The position numbers and the translations under genes are program-made. Shown piece after piece: positions 52,007 to 59,529 of a stretch of DNA of 64,000 bases. The notes beneath the pieces are model-generated. The model searched no databases. It was not told where the DNA came from and worked only from the letters and a program-made list of their open reading frames with translations. Within the stretch, counting starts at the first letter, position 1, and every line of letters starts with the position of its first letter. The stretch comes from Pseudomonas violetae (lineage in GTDB: Bacteria > Pseudomonadota > Gammaproteobacteria > Pseudomonadales > Pseudomonadaceae). The stretch spans positions 372,001 to 436,000 of the forward strand of contig NZ_JAKNRW010000003.1 of the NCBI RefSeq assembly GCF_023072615.1, in the 5' to 3' direction.

Positions 52007-53188
52007 TCAACGGTGAACGATGGTTGCACGGTCACTGGCGCTAGTCCTCCGTGCAGCATTGATGGGGCTGACCGACAGCACGCCCGCGATCAGCAAGCCG
52101 CTGCCGGCCACGATCAACGCAGGCTGCAAACTGTTGCTGTAATGGCTGCTTAACGCAGCCAGCAACGGGCCTGCGAGCTGACCCACGGCGAAGCACGCGG
52201 TCAATAATCCCGCGTTGCGCTGGGTGGTATGGGGCGCCAGCTCCCGGGAGCGTTGCATCACCAGTTGCATGCAGGCCAGGAATGGCCCGCCACACAGGAG
52301 CACACCCAACGCCAGGCCCGTGCCACTGCCCAGCAGGCAGGCGAAGACGCCCGCCGCCTGCAGCCATAACGTCGCCATCAACCAGTGCCGGGTGGCGTTC
52401 GGATTGTGCCGGCGCATGCTCACCACCCCTACACCGGACGCAGCGGCCAGGCCGAAACATGGCCAGAACAGATCGGCTTGCCATTGGCCCTGGAACTGCG
52501 CGCTGGCCATCTGCGAGAGAAAGGTGGCGGGAATGATGTAGCCCAATCCGTACAACCCATAGACCAGGCCCAGGCGGCCGATGCCTCGGTGGCCGCTGCC
52601 TGTATCCACGGGCGCGGTAGGTGCTGCGGCAACCGGCCGGGGCAGAAACGGCAGGATGCCCAGCAACATCACCAGCCCTACTGCAGCGTACACCAGCCAT
52701 AAAGTAGCCGAGGTCTGCCTCAGTAAGTTCGAGCCCAGCGCCAGCAGCCCGGTCAGAAAAATCCCCAGGCCCGGTCCGGCAAATACCAGGGCGCCGAGCC
52801 GCGGACGACCCGCTGCGACGGCCAGGGGCTGACTCAGGGCGGTAATCATCACCAGCACCCAGGCGCTGGCCACGCCGGTTCCGAATCGCAACAGCAGATG
52901 CGACCAGAAACCGTCGGCCCAGAACGAAGCCAGGGTCAGCAGGACACATAACCACAAGCCACCCTGCAATCGTCTTCGGACCTGTGTGGGCCTTCGAGAA
53001 AACATGGAGTCCACTGCGCCGACGAAATAACCCAGGTAATTGGCGGCGGCGATCAGTCCCGCAGCGGTCAGGTCGATCTGGCCTTCACTGAGCAGGTGCG
53101 GCAGTTGAGGCGTCAGGGCGAAGCGGCCGATGCCCATGGCCATCATCAAGGCGATAAAACTGGCAGACAAGCGAATCAAGGGGGTCAT
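52007..53188 (-). CDS. YbfB/YjiJ family MFS transporter
   Basis: 393 residues and about 12 membrane segments. MAMGIGRFALTPQLPHLLSEG and GLIAAANYLGYFVGA are signatures of the YbfB/YjiJ family of the major facilitator superfamily. The substrate is unknown. A LysR gene diverges from it across 101 bp with a palindrome between them, so that regulator probably controls this exporter. Confidence 0.9.
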   Translation of the reverse strand: MTPLIRLSASFIALMMAMGIGRFALTPQLPHLLSEGQIDLTAAGLIAAANYLGYFVGAVDSMFSRRPTQVRRRLQGGLWLCVLLTLASFWADGFWSHLLLRFGTGVASAWVLVMITALSQPLAVAAGRPRLGALVFAGPGLGIFLTGLLALGSNLLRQTSATLWLVYAAVGLVMLLGILPFLPRPVAAAPTAPVDTGSGHRGIGRLGLVYGLYGLGYIIPATFLSQMASAQFQGQWQADLFWPCFGLAAASGVGVVSMRRHNPNATRHWLMATLWLQAAGVFACLLGSGTGLALGVLLCGGPFLACMQLVMQRSRELAPHTTQRNAGLLTACFAVGQLAGPLLAALSSHYSNSLQPALIVAGSGLLIAGVLSVSPINAARRTSASDRATIVHR

Positions 53189-53250
53189 GGTGAAGACCTG
53201 CTGAAGATCAATGACCGTCAGGCTAGGACAGATTGACTTTCTTTAAAAAT

Positions 53251-53273
53251 GAATAATAGTGAGTAACTTATTC
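53251..53273. promoter_or_regulatory. Candidate LysR operator
   Basis: GAATAA and TTATTC are exact complements with an 11-base spacer (TAGTGAGTAAC). The site is AT-rich and lies between the divergent MFS and LysR genes, 17 bp before the LysR start codon. LysR boxes are often such partial dyads in this position. Confidence 0.55.
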
Positions 53274-53289
53274 TTATTTGGAGAATGGT

Positions 53290-54183
53290 GTGGAATTCAG
53301 TCAGTTGCGCATCTTCCAGGCCGTTGCCGAGGAGGGCTCCATTACCCGAGCCGCTGAGAGGTTACATCGGGTGCCGTCAAACCTGTCGACCCGGGTTAAG
53401 CAGTTGGAGGAGCAGCTTGGTGTAGAGCTTTTCCTGCGCGAGCGTCAGCGCCTGCAACTGTCGCCTGCGGGAAAAGTCCTGCTGGACTACACCGCCAAAC
53501 TGTTCAGCCTGCATGACGAAGCACAGTCGGCCGTGCAAGGTGGGCAACCGGCGGGAGACTTTGTGCTCGGTACCATGTACAGCACGGCCGCCATCCACCT
53601 TCCAGCGCTTCTGGCGCGCTATCACCGCAGTTACCCTGCGGTGAACCTGCAGGTCCAGTCGGCCCCCAGCGGCGAGTTACTGGAAGGACTGCTGACCGGT
53701 CGGCTGGATGCGGCACTGGTCGACGGCCCACTGGAACTGGCCGGACTCGACGGCTTGCCTCTGTGCGACGAACGGCTGGTACTAATCAGCGAGGCCGATC
53801 ATCCGCCGGTGCGTAGTGCACTGGATGTGCAGGGGCGTTCGGTGTTCACGTTTCGCCAGGGGTGTTCCTACCGGATGCGCCTGGAAGCCTGGTTTGCCCA
53901 TGATCATGCAGCCATGGGCCGTGCCATGGAGATTGAGTCTTATCCGGGAATGCTCGCCTGTGTGATCGCAGGCTCTGGTGTGGCACTGATGTCGGAGTCC
54001 ATGCTCGCCAGCCTGCCAGGACGGGAAAGCGTGGCCGTGCACCCGCTGGCCGAGCCCTTTGCCAGTGCGACCACCTGGCTGATGTGGCGTAAGGGCATGG
54101 TCGGGGCCAATCTGAATGCATGGATAGAGCAGCAGCAGGCGGTCTACCCGGCGCTGTCGACACCGGTCCAGGCGATTGCTTGA
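53290..54183 (+). CDS. LysR-family transcriptional regulator
   Basis: 297 residues. The HTH (TRAAERLHRVPSNLSTRVKQLEEQL) is of the sub-group that has PSNLS where most have QSALS, as in PtrR/YneJ. The effector domain has VLGTMYSTAAIHLPALLARY and ends ALSTPVQAIA. The GTG at 53290 is chosen because GGAG lies six bases before it and MEFSQLRIFQAV is the family start. It diverges from a YbfB-type exporter, which it probably controls together with itself. Confidence 0.9.
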   Translation: MEFSQLRIFQAVAEEGSITRAAERLHRVPSNLSTRVKQLEEQLGVELFLRERQRLQLSPAGKVLLDYTAKLFSLHDEAQSAVQGGQPAGDFVLGTMYSTAAIHLPALLARYHRSYPAVNLQVQSAPSGELLEGLLTGRLDAALVDGPLELAGLDGLPLCDERLVLISEADHPPVRSALDVQGRSVFTFRQGCSYRMRLEAWFAHDHAAMGRAMEIESYPGMLACVIAGSGVALMSESMLASLPGRESVAVHPLAEPFASATTWLMWRKGMVGANLNAWIEQQQAVYPALSTPVQAIA

Positions 54184-54323
54184 ACTATCTGATCGGGATT
54201 TGGATCAATTCAGTAACAGATCATTGTTTCTTTTGCCGAGCATTGCGTAGGACTTCGGACTATTATCAGTGCGAAGCGACTTCAGAATTCCGGTCGCTCG
54301 GCACTACCCTGAAGGGGGGCACC

Positions 54324-54452
54324 ATGAAAGAGAAAATCCAAAACTGGCTGCACGACTTGGGTGTCGCACTCGGTTTGATCGAACCGCCTCTGCAACCTGT
54401 GCCAATCCGTACAGACGACGAACAGCGTCGACGCCAGCAGCGCCGCCGTTAG
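54324..54452 (+). CDS. 42-residue small basic protein
   Basis: MKEKIQNWLHDLGVALGLIE followed by PPLQPVPIRTDDEQRRRQQRRR. An amphipathic N-terminal helix, a proline hinge and an arginine-rich tail give it a clear design. AAGGGGGG lies five to six bases before the ATG. I believe similar short proteins occur in other Pseudomonas, but this is from memory. The 140 bp before it, after the LysR stop, hold no gene. Membrane or nucleic-acid association is only inferred. Confidence 0.6.
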   Translation: MKEKIQNWLHDLGVALGLIEPPLQPVPIRTDDEQRRRQQRRR

Positions 54453-54455
54453 TTG

Positions 54456-54558
54456 TTGTAGGCGCTAGCTTGTTCGCGATGGTCGCAAATGATCACACGG
54501 GCAAGCAGGCTGCATGCGGTGCTCCAACCAATGGCGAGCAAGCTCTGCTCCCACAGGA
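54456..54558. repeat. REP doublet, strongly decayed
   Basis: Left copy TTGTAGGCGCTAGCTTGTTC and right copy GGCGAGCAAGCTCTGCTCCC are recognisable but share only part of the core. It starts four bases after the stop of the 42-residue gene. Confidence 0.65.
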
Positions 54559-54602
54559 CTCCCGCAGTCAGGTAGAGCCTCAGTAATCCTTTGGCAGGTA
54601 CG

Positions 54603-54854
54603 CTAGTGCCTCCCAATCTCAATCAAAAAACGGCTCAGATCACCGGCCGTTTTTGCACTTCTGATCATCCGATCTTCCTCGCCGGTAAACGCCGTCAACC
54701 CTAGTTCATCCTCCAGATGGAAGATCATCTCCTCAATATCCTCCTTGTCCAACCCCAGTTCATCAAGCTTTGAGTCGTCGTCGAAATCCTCCCTCGATTC
54801 CAGCAGGCGGCTGATAAAACGATGCACGGTGGCACGAATGGCTGCTCTTTTCAT
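54603..54854 (-). CDS. ACP-like protein lacking the phosphopantetheine serine
   Basis: 83 residues, acidic and helical. Residues 30-51 (LDELGLDKEDIEEMIFHLED) line up with the LGxDSLxxVELVxxLEExF region of acyl carrier proteins, but the position of the modified Ser holds Lys37. It could be a carrier-protein fold used for protein binding rather than acyl transfer, or an unrelated four-helix protein. The start at 54854 has only a weak ribosome-binding site. It stands alone, downstream of nothing related. Confidence 0.65.
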   Translation of the reverse strand: MKRAAIRATVHRFISRLLESREDFDDDSKLDELGLDKEDIEEMIFHLEDELGLTAFTGEEDRMIRSAKTAGDLSRFLIEIGRH

Positions 54855-54958
54855 GATCGATCTTCGCGGGCTAGTTATTGTTGTCCCACTCTTGAGTACA
54901 GCAGGCCGCTGCTGAACCAGGGCTGCCGCTCGTCTTGCATTCACCTTTTCTGCAAGCG

Positions 54959-54994
54959 AAAAAAAACGGGTGTGGCAACCGACGCCACACCCGT
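54959..54994 (-). terminator. Rho-independent terminator of the gbu transcript
   Basis: On the minus strand ACGGGTGTGGC and its complement (54984-54994 and 54966-54976) form an 11-bp stem, and eight T follow. It lies 31 bp after the stop of the symporter gene at 55025. Confidence 0.9.
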
Positions 54995-55024
54995 CGAAGA
55001 AAACGTTAAGTCATTTTTTCGCTA

Positions 55025-56404
55025 TCAGATCATGCTCGCCGCCACTGACGGGCGACGGGACATCAGGCTTACCACCACAAAGCTCACCAGGCCGACAGCC
55101 AGGCTGTAGTAGATTGGCGTGTTGGCATCGAGGCCGTCCTTGAACATGAACACCAGTGCGGTGGCAAAACCCATGCCCATGCTGGCAATGGCGCCGGCGG
55201 TCGTTGCGCGTTTCCAGAAAATGGCCCCGATCAGCGGGATCAACATGCCACCCACCAGGAGGTTGTAGGCCAGGGTCAGGGCGCTGATAACGTCATTGAC
55301 CACCAGTGCGATGCCAAGTACGGCGATGCCGGTCAGCAGGGTAAACAGCCGGTTGATGCGCAGGCTCGACTGTTTGCCACCACGCAGTTTCGGCAGCAGG
55401 TCCTCTGTCAGTGTGGTAGACGCCGCGAGAAGGCCGGCGCTGGCGGTGGACATCATGGCGGCCAGTGCGGCAGCAATGACCAGGCCACGGATGCCGTCCG
55501 GCAAGGACAGTTTGACGATGGCGGCGAAGGCGTTGTTGACGTTGTCCAGGTCCGGAATCAACACGTGGGCGGCCATGCCTATCAGGGCGCAGGCCAGTCC
55601 GTAGAGGATGCAGTAGAAGCCAGCGAAAGTACCCGCATACTGGGCAATTTTCGCGGTCTTGACGGTGAACACCCGCTGCCAGATGTCCTGGCCGATCAGA
55701 ATCCCGAAGAAGTAGATCATGAAGTAGGTGATGATGGTGTCCCAGCCGATGGTGGTGAAGCTGAAGGCGCTAGCCGGCAGTTTCAGCACCAGTTCATCCC
55801 AGCCGCCGACGCGGTACAGGCAGATGGGTAACAGGATGAACATCAGGCCGACGGTCTTGATCACGAACTGGACGATGTCGGTCAGCGTCAGGGACCACAT
55901 GCCGCCGATCGCCGAGTAAACCACTACCACACCGCCGCCGAGCAGTACCGAGACCCAGAAAGGCAGGCCAAACAGCACTTGCAGGACGGTACCGATCGCC
56001 AGGATCGAGGTCACGCCGATCATCAGCGCGTACGCCAGCATGATCGCTGCGCTCGCGGAGCGGGCCATCGGGTTGTAGCGTTTTTCCAACACCTGGGTGA
56101 CGGTGTAGATCTTCAGCTTGAGCAGTGGCTTGGCGAGGAACAGGTTCAACGCCACGATCCCGCAGCCCAGCGCCGCGCACAGCCAGAATCCGGAAATACC
56201 ATGGACATAGCCCAGGCGCACGGTGCCGACGGTGGACGCACCACCCAGGACGGTTGCGGCCATGGTACCCATGTACAGGGTCGGGCCGAGGTTGCGACCG
56301 GCAACCAGGTAGTCTTCGTTGGTCTTGGCCTTGCGCATGCCGAAGTAGCCGAGGACCAGCATCGCGGCGGCGTATATGAGAACGACGAATAAATCCAAAG
56401 CCAT
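55025..56404 (-). CDS. Sodium:solute symporter (SSS family) of the gbu cluster
   Basis: 459 residues, about 13 membrane segments. The SSS patterns YFGMRKAKTNEDYLVAGRNL and AAALAAMMSTASAGLLAAST are present. It should import a solute with sodium. Its place as the last gene of the set gbuA, NTF2-like, NCS1 permease, symporter matches the order known in P. aeruginosa, where the cluster serves 4-guanidinobutyrate use. Its substrate may be guanidinobutyrate or a product, not shown directly. A strong terminator follows. Confidence 0.9.
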   Translation of the reverse strand: MALDLFVVLIYAAAMLVLGYFGMRKAKTNEDYLVAGRNLGPTLYMGTMAATVLGGASTVGTVRLGYVHGISGFWLCAALGCGIVALNLFLAKPLLKLKIYTVTQVLEKRYNPMARSASAAIMLAYALMIGVTSILAIGTVLQVLFGLPFWVSVLLGGGVVVVYSAIGGMWSLTLTDIVQFVIKTVGLMFILLPICLYRVGGWDELVLKLPASAFSFTTIGWDTIITYFMIYFFGILIGQDIWQRVFTVKTAKIAQYAGTFAGFYCILYGLACALIGMAAHVLIPDLDNVNNAFAAIVKLSLPDGIRGLVIAAALAAMMSTASAGLLAASTTLTEDLLPKLRGGKQSSLRINRLFTLLTGIAVLGIALVVNDVISALTLAYNLLVGGMLIPLIGAIFWKRATTAGAIASMGMGFATALVFMFKDGLDANTPIYYSLAVGLVSFVVVSLMSRRPSVAASMI

Positions 56405-56500
56405 GATGGCGTGTCTCCGATTGTCTTTTTTATGATGAGGCTGGAAAGCAGTGTGGTAATCAGGCCACAGGTATTCACCTCATTACCGTGTCAGTTGTAT

Positions 56501-58495: not shown

Positions 58496-59446
58496 TCAAC
58501 GATGAACCACGCCCGGGAGTACGCAGAGCATTTCGTACAGCAGGTTGGCGGCCAGCAGCGAGGTATTTCCGGTGGTGTCGTAAGCGGGCGAGACTTCTAC
58601 CAGATCGCAACCGACCAGGTCGAGGCCTTGGCAGCCACGCACGATCTCGATCGCTTGAATGGTCGTCAGGCCGCCGATCTCCGGGGTACCGGTGCCCGGA
58701 GCCCAGGCCGGATCGATGCCGTCAATGTCAAAACTCAGGTACACCGGACCGCCACCGACTTTCTCCCGAACTTCAGCCATCAGCGGCGCGAGGGATTTGT
58801 GCCAGCACTCTTCTGCCTGGACGACGCGAAAGCCCTGGTTGCGGCTCCAGTTGAAGTCGTCGGCGGTGTAGCCCTGGGCGCGCAGGCCAATTTGCACTAC
58901 GCGGTCCGGGTCCAGCAGGCCTTCCTCGACAGCGCGACGGAAGGTGGTGCCGTGGGCGATTTTCTCGCCGAACATGTGATCGTTGACATCCGCGTGGGCG
59001 TCGATGTGCACCAGGCCGACTTTGCCGTGCTTTTTGTGGATGGCACGCAGGATCGGCAGGGTAATGGTGTGGTCGCCGCCCAGGGTCAGGGGGATCACGT
59101 CGTGTTCGAGGATGTTGTCGTAGGACTCTTCGATGATCCGTACGGCGTCCAGCAGATTGAAGGTGTTGATTGCGACGTCGCCGATGTCGGCCACCGACAG
59201 CGAATCGAACGGAGCAGCGCCGGTCGCCATGTTGTACGGGCGGATCATTACCGATTCGGCGCGGATTTCCCGAGGTCCAAAACGGGTGCCAGGGCGCAGG
59301 GAGGTACCGATGTCCAGGGGCACGCCAACGAAGGCAGCGTCCAGGCCGGCAGCGGTAGGCACATGGGGAAGTCGCATCATGGTGGCGATGCCGCCGAAGC
59401 GCGGCATTTCGTTGCCGCCCAGTGGTTGGTGAAGGATCTTGTCCAC
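58496..59446 (-). CDS. gbuA: Guanidinobutyrase
   Basis: 316 residues of the arginase/agmatinase (ureohydrolase) family. The manganese ligands are seen in LGGDHTIT, VHIDAHADVND and SFDIDGIDPAWAPGTG. It begins VDKILHQPLGGNEMPRFGG and matches the P. aeruginosa GbuA sequence closely as I recall it. It splits 4-guanidinobutyrate to 4-aminobutyrate and urea. GTG at 59446 has GAGG nine bases upstream; ATG codons at 59464 and 59461 do not. It heads the gbu operon and diverges from gbuR. Confidence 0.93.
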   Translation of the reverse strand: MDKILHQPLGGNEMPRFGGIATMMRLPHVPTAAGLDAAFVGVPLDIGTSLRPGTRFGPREIRAESVMIRPYNMATGAAPFDSLSVADIGDVAINTFNLLDAVRIIEESYDNILEHDVIPLTLGGDHTITLPILRAIHKKHGKVGLVHIDAHADVNDHMFGEKIAHGTTFRRAVEEGLLDPDRVVQIGLRAQGYTADDFNWSRNQGFRVVQAEECWHKSLAPLMAEVREKVGGGPVYLSFDIDGIDPAWAPGTGTPEIGGLTTIQAIEIVRGCQGLDLVGCDLVEVSPAYDTTGNTSLLAANLLYEMLCVLPGVVHR

Positions 59447-59529
59447 GGGTTCAGGCCTCATCATTTTTTTGTATTAGGCGCCGATTCTGCGAAATGTAGT
59501 GGCGGGGAAGAATCGCTACGGACAAATAC

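Follow-up and report, generated by a model that had tools for sequence, protein, structure and literature searches.

An acyl carrier protein homologue without the carrier serine in Pseudomonas

Acyl carrier protein (ACP) is the cell's fatty-acid shuttle. A small gene of Pseudomonas violetae, located at 54603..54854 on the minus strand of the 64,000-nucleotide stretch of DNA analysed here (the window), encodes what is a well supported ACP homologue lacking the serine that bears phosphopantetheine. The explanation we favour, with about an even chance of being right, is that the product is an ACP paralogue which cannot be phosphopantetheinylated, is kept by selection and, in the main branch of its family, to which the window gene belongs, docks through helix II as a non-carrying stand-in for ACP.

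The gene starts with an ATG at 54854 and encodes 83 amino acids, with the stop codon included in the coordinates. Translation of the minus strand gave the protein MKRAAIRATVHRFISRLLESREDFDDDSKLDELGLDKEDIEEMIFHLEDELGLTAFTGEEDRMIRSAKTAGDLSRFLIEIGRH, which has no inner stop and is acidic (net charge -8). A mechanical list of open reading frames (ORFs) contained an upstream GTG start resulting in a 113-aa version; the position of the ATG at 54854 was found to be the start in nearly all homologues, one of which has GTG there. The ACP motif that surrounds the carrier serine aligns with residues 33-51 (LGLDKEDIEEMIFHLEDEL), as an earlier sequence-only reading of the window had proposed. In both HMMER and hhalign alignments the ACP serine pairs with Lys37 (codon 54744..54746, minus strand), the slot that is tallied over the homologues below. 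The equivalent of recognition helix II, residues 36-51 (54702..54749, minus strand), was located from the AlphaFold secondary structure (helix 37-51) and from conservation of the contact residues in the main branch.

Taken alone, the protein is a weak match to known carriers. It scored 12.6 bits against PF00550 (E 0.17; cut-off 20.8) and gave E-values of 0.011-0.041 against the NCBIfam ACP models, all under their cut-offs. Its top matches among PDB sequences were ACPs (E 0.006 and 0.0088), and LptB transporters made up 3 of the 19 matches at E up to 1. The caution of the sequence-only reading, which had left room for a convergent helical protein, was therefore fair. A profile of 33 homologues gave 117 matches to PDB sequences at E up to 1 (best E 1.1e-5), and the best 60 of these 117 were all carrier proteins, including mitochondrial ones. 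PF00550 was matched by 31 of the 33 members at E up to 1, with a best E of 5.5e-5. Profile-profile comparison of the family with 19 ACPs in hhalign yielded E 1.1e-4 at a probability of only 57%.

Shuffled sequences were used as controls in both directions. The family profile scored 19 genuine proteobacterial ACPs at 14.7-27.4 bits, above every one of 5700 shuffled ACPs (maximum 12.2). With the ACP profile, conversely, the 33 members reached 6.5-18.4 bits (mean 12.8); in 9900 shuffles the 99.9% level was 8.4 and the highest score 12.4 bits. For 14 members of a second, divergent branch the scores were 4.5-19.9 bits (mean 9.7), and 4200 shuffles of these reached a 99.9% level of 9.1 and a maximum of 13.4. 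Some single members thus lie within the extreme tail of the shuffles, those of the divergent branch most of all.

Further evidence came from what the family profile finds outside the family. It matched 60 of 398 genomes of the taxonomic family at E 0.01, and the 35 listed matches that lacked a clear full-length member locus were fetched and inspected. Thirteen belonged to the divergent branch, 4 were truncated, stop-containing or remnant copies, and 18 were genuine carriers, all 18 of which are full-length and hold Ser in the carrier slot. A class-wide search of 274 genomes matched 14 besides that of the window at 1e-4, and Ser was present in 11 of the 11 loci fetched. Across all fetched loci, the ORFs outside the family that scored above 12 bits comprised Ser-bearing carriers, apparent tandem copies in L043 and L047, and a remnant in L133. 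Searching the window's own genome returned the gene itself and one chance-level match (E 0.87) only. Its AcpP scored 20.5 bits with the same profile when scored directly, and we take its absence from the search to be due to the search's first filter. In a tree of 44 short sequences, computed with long-branch warnings, the two Ser-less branches formed one clade with support of 92/80 (not starred).

The structure predictions gave a mixed picture. Two AlphaFold runs were made from an alignment of five close sequences (the window and four related loci), which is too shallow to decide the packing, and gave mean pLDDT values of 87.1 and 88.7 and pTM values of 0.76 and 0.78; four of the five models in run 1 and three of the five in run 2 were the other, lower-scoring ones, with mean pLDDT of 66-73. 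Both runs placed helices at 2-19, 37-51, 58-65/66 and 70-82, which is the helix order of ACP. Structure prediction against ACP had been set by the sequence-only reading as a test that could refute it; from these five-sequence models the helix order stood, and the superposition was poor. Foldseek returned mostly ACPs and carrier domains, none of them at E 0.001, with rmsd values of 4.7-8.5 Å and TM-scores by query length that did not exceed 0.48 for model 1 or 0.46 for model 2. In VIA-align, the best Z for model 1 was that of a class I LysRS (5.3), and for model 2 those of Csm subunits (5.7-7.2) and NarX (5.7), with ACPs at 3-4 in both cases. No sequence search pointed to Csm subunits, NarX or the other bundles that outranked ACPs for model 2.

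The poor packing agreement (Z 5-7 for other helical bundles, as good as or better than ACPs), the scores of the query alone under the Pfam and NCBIfam cut-offs and the single members inside the upper shuffle tail would all suit an acidic helical protein that resembles ACP by convergence. Against this stand the carriers that fill the best 60 of 117 PDB matches, the real ACPs that outscore every shuffle and the Ser-bearing carriers that make up all 18 full out-of-family and all 11 inspected class-wide matches. Because of this profile specificity, the shuffle controls and the nature of the inspected out-of-family matches, the sequences argue for common descent with ACP rather than chance likeness. 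Convergence was rejected on the profile, shuffle and specificity tests and is in our estimate very unlikely, so that of the two relationships considered in the sequence-only reading it is kinship with ACP that held.

The sequence-only reading had also asked whether homologues have Ser at the carrier position. The 131 loci of the family, some of which are the same genome found twice, encode 113 distinct proteins, and the carrier serine is absent from all 113. In the main branch (98 distinct proteins) the slot is occupied by Lys in 90, Thr in 4, Arg in 3 and Ile in 1, and in the divergent branch (15 distinct proteins) by Glu in 8, Asp in 4 and Gln, His and Ala in 1 each. Since the serine is replaced by Lys (or Thr, Arg or Ile), and mostly by acidic residues in the sister branch, phosphopantetheinylation should not be possible, and the proteins probably carry no 4'-phosphopantetheine or other prosthetic group. 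The available part of one report describes the AcpP mutant S36T as not modifiable and non-functional (PMC3340395). The prevalence of Lys in the main branch could point instead to carriage by another residue, with Lys37 or a different side chain acylated or otherwise modified. The other residues found in the slot, three in the main branch and five in the sister branch, speak against such a role, as does the fact that we know of no enzyme that acylates or modifies ACP folds at such a residue; we regard this as an unlikely reading, to be given very little weight.

The gene is under purifying selection. The median dN/dS was 0.16 (quartiles 0.12-0.21) over 2090 of 2628 pairs from 73 equal-length genes. 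In the main branch Gly34, Glu48 and Asp49 are invariant in 98 of 98 proteins and Asp39 is kept in 97. Residues D36, D39, E42, F45, E48 and D49 form a face of helix II and correspond to D35, D38, E41, M44, E47 and E48 of E. coli AcpP. We take E47 and E48 to be contact residues. The other four, D35, D38, E41 and M44, are named as contacts in the sections available of two papers (PMC3340395; PMC13343975). When six polar positions were drawn at random 20000 times, only 2 draws were as conserved in the main branch as these six equivalents. In the divergent branch 11500 of 20000 draws were as conserved, so that the face shows no excess conservation there, and among its acidic positions only the first two are kept throughout. 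Conservation of the acidic and hydrophobic face is thus confined to the main branch, and since the divergent branch lacks it, a single docking role common to both is doubtful.

In AcpP, helix II (L42, V43 and M44) mediates contacts with SpoT and with fatty-acid enzymes, as far as the available text of that study goes (PMC3340395). The conserved face of the main branch fits a mimic. Under the favoured explanation selection has maintained the gene product as a small free-standing protein, whose helix-II face would dock, in the main branch, onto a partner that reads ACP or onto one specialised for the ACP-like protein. Such docking would bring no cargo; the protein would instead occupy, compete for or regulate the partner. 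Both the docking and its purpose are inferred. A narrower version, which we consider possible though rather improbable, is a genus-specific natural ACP decoy that competes with AcpP at a regulatory or metabolic partner, for example SpoT or a fatty-acid enzyme. Some ACP partners depend on the serine or its 4'-phosphopantetheine arm, which speaks against the stand-in: IscS does not bind AcpP S36T, according to the part of the paper at hand (PMC13343975). The poor superposition of the two AlphaFold models on ACPs counts against it as well.

Of 298 genomes sampled from the genus, 80 (that of the window included) matched the single sequence at E 0.001. This count is a lower bound, because the family profile finds divergent copies that the single sequence misses, some of them in genomes scored as empty. 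The named relatives are Pseudomonas sp. (4 loci). An order-wide search with the single sequence matched 2 of 293 genomes, both Pseudomonas, and within all of these samples Ser-less members were found in Pseudomonas only. Disrupted copies are present at the same locus in four genomes (L131, L132, L133 and L134), showing that the gene can be lost. Both this handful of truncated or remnant copies and the limited presence among the sampled genomes indicate that the gene is dispensable, a point against the stand-in. The patchy presence and the disrupted or fragmentary copies are also what a decaying relic without function would leave behind, but the low dN/dS over the 2090 pairs and the helix-II residues that are invariant across 98 distinct proteins are not, and decay is accordingly an unlikely account, with only a slight chance of being correct. 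In L043, L044 and L047 a second, shorter ACP-like ORF lies about 240 bases upstream of the gene. In L043 and L044 it encodes 75 aa (MNRTDIQ...). Its end is separated from the first gene's start by 13 bases. It lacks the motif loop, yet the family profile gave it 14.2 bits in L043 and 18.1 bits in L047, which points to a tandem duplication. A mobile origin was rejected, as plasmid and phage records held no match to the gene, a PADLOC scan returned nothing and PHROGs gave a single chance-level match (E 0.17).

Along the minus strand of the window, a ureohydrolase gene is followed by one for a small protein with no family assignment, then by an NCS1-like transporter, a sodium symporter, a hairpin and the ACP-like gene. 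The ureohydrolase (58496..59464; agmatinase family by NCBIfam, 216.1 bits, cut-off 174.3) was also found at many loci with a long enough fetched flank. The sodium/solute symporter (55025..56404) was assigned by synteny and by a match to the NCBIfam model sss (E 2.6e-41) whose 142.1 bits are below the cut-off of 184. Between it and the ACP-like gene, a pattern scan found a terminator-like hairpin with a T run (54965..54995, minus strand), which is a consensus match only. Beyond the ACP-like gene lie a convergent small gene of the PA1414 family (54324..54452, plus strand; NCBIfam NF041729, E 2.2e-25) and a LysR regulator of the PtrR (putrescine utilisation) family (53278..54183, plus strand; NF047711, 458.9 bits, cut-off 400). 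This order recurs in part at the fetched loci, within the reach of their flanks. No fatty-acid, polyketide or peptide synthesis gene was found among the six window neighbours scanned against NCBIfam, and Rfam had no match at E up to 1 in 53000-56500.

In L036 and L046 the ACP-like gene adjoins a gene that is absent from the window and whose HxHxDH motif we take to indicate a metallo-hydrolase. Two blocks recur in 15 aligned upstream regions (about 54870-54930 in the window, minus strand). In L036 the block GACGAGTGGCAG belongs to the coding end of the metallo-hydrolase-like gene, and the similar stretch in the window may be what a deletion left of that gene. The second block, near GCCTGCTGTACTCA, is intergenic, a possible promoter or regulator site. 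Anr-type boxes (at least 8 of 10 matches) were not enriched upstream of the ACP-like gene (5 of 127, compared with 3 of 127 in shuffles). Upstream of the PA1414-family gene they were found in 57 of 122 cases and in 4 of 122 shuffles, with positions that differ among the matches listed.

The PA1414-family gene is the most constant of the neighbours tested. It lies beside 129 of the 131 family loci (122 by pattern and 7 by profile), including L117, L120 and L123, which yielded none of the other neighbours tested; it was not found in L047, nor in L071, which begins near a contig end. Its product is small and, judged by eye, has an arginine-rich C-terminus and a helix-like N-terminus. The ACP-like protein could thus be a neofunctionalised adaptor that has kept the ACP fold and now binds a target outside the set of ACP partners, such as the PA1414-family product. 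The constancy of this convergent neighbour, the acidity of the query and near-invariant residues that are not conserved in ACPs, for example R7, H11, T54, A55 and T57, favour such an adaptor.

The wider distribution of the neighbour counts against it. A profile of the PA1414-family peptide matched 160 of 248 Pseudomonadaceae genomes, 153 of them over the cut-off, and among the 30 best-scoring fetched loci an ACP-like member was beside 11, with none found by profile in the other 19. In 6 of 7 inspected loci from another genus without a member, an ORF of 241 aa, again with the motif that we assign to metallo-hydrolases, takes the place of the ACP-like gene (not clearly so in L174); the earlier PA1414 pattern had no match in those loci. 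Because the PA1414-family gene is far more widespread than the ACP-like gene, their adjacency is weak evidence of joint function, and the pairing can be shared locus ancestry. Moreover, convergent genes are not co-transcribed, and in L046 an extra gene separates the pair. The adaptor is a tentative possibility, though one to be taken seriously. In P. aeruginosa the locus has been described as the sRNA SicX; the available portion of that report states that start-codon and frame-shift mutations did not matter and that blastn at over 90% identity gave no homologues elsewhere (PMC10247376). Among 71 same-length PA1414-family genes beside the ACP-like family, mean pS was 0.463, mean pN 0.050 and median dN/dS 0.02, and 17 same-length genes from loci without it gave pS 0.232 and pN 0.067. 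Judging from these substitutions, strong selection seems to act at these loci on the PA1414-family peptide itself.

Multi-domain synthases are known to include degenerate carrier domains that lack Ser. Exact-phrase searches of one open library, which are weak evidence, brought up no report of a natural Ser-less ACP family like the present one. The family resembles AcpP (PF00550, TIGR00517) in size, helix order, acidic character, the LGxDxxD...LExE motif and profile homology and, in the main branch only, in the helix-II contact residues. It differs in the loss of the phosphopantetheine serine from its 113 distinct homologues, in scores of the query under the family cut-offs and, by alignment, in being about 4 residues longer after helix II. 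A Pseudomonadaceae carrier subfamily, LGLDSIKVMDLLMELEDEFDISIP (L136-L146 and L203-L205), shares LGLD and LEDEF with it and matches the family profile more weakly; this subfamily keeps Ser, has another C-terminal half, and its members in the tree fall outside the Ser-less clade. The engineered AcpP S36T is likewise unmodifiable with the rest of helix II intact, as described in the parts available of both papers (PMC3340395; PMC13343975), but is a laboratory mutant, whereas the loss in the present family arose in nature and has persisted in many species. That a single Pseudomonas genome can encode several ACP paralogues is shown by AcpP1, AcpP2 and AcpP3 of P. aeruginosa, all of which, in the accessible text of that study, keep the serine and are phosphopantetheinylated (PMC5686131).

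ACP is a hub, and its contacts are hard to dissect because its carrier function is essential. If the decoy were true, a pathway would be tuned without the carriage of acyl groups. More generally, a natural homologue with the docking face, without the cargo site and under selection in many species would allow docking to be studied apart from carrying, and might show which of the ACP partners is controlled through binding alone.
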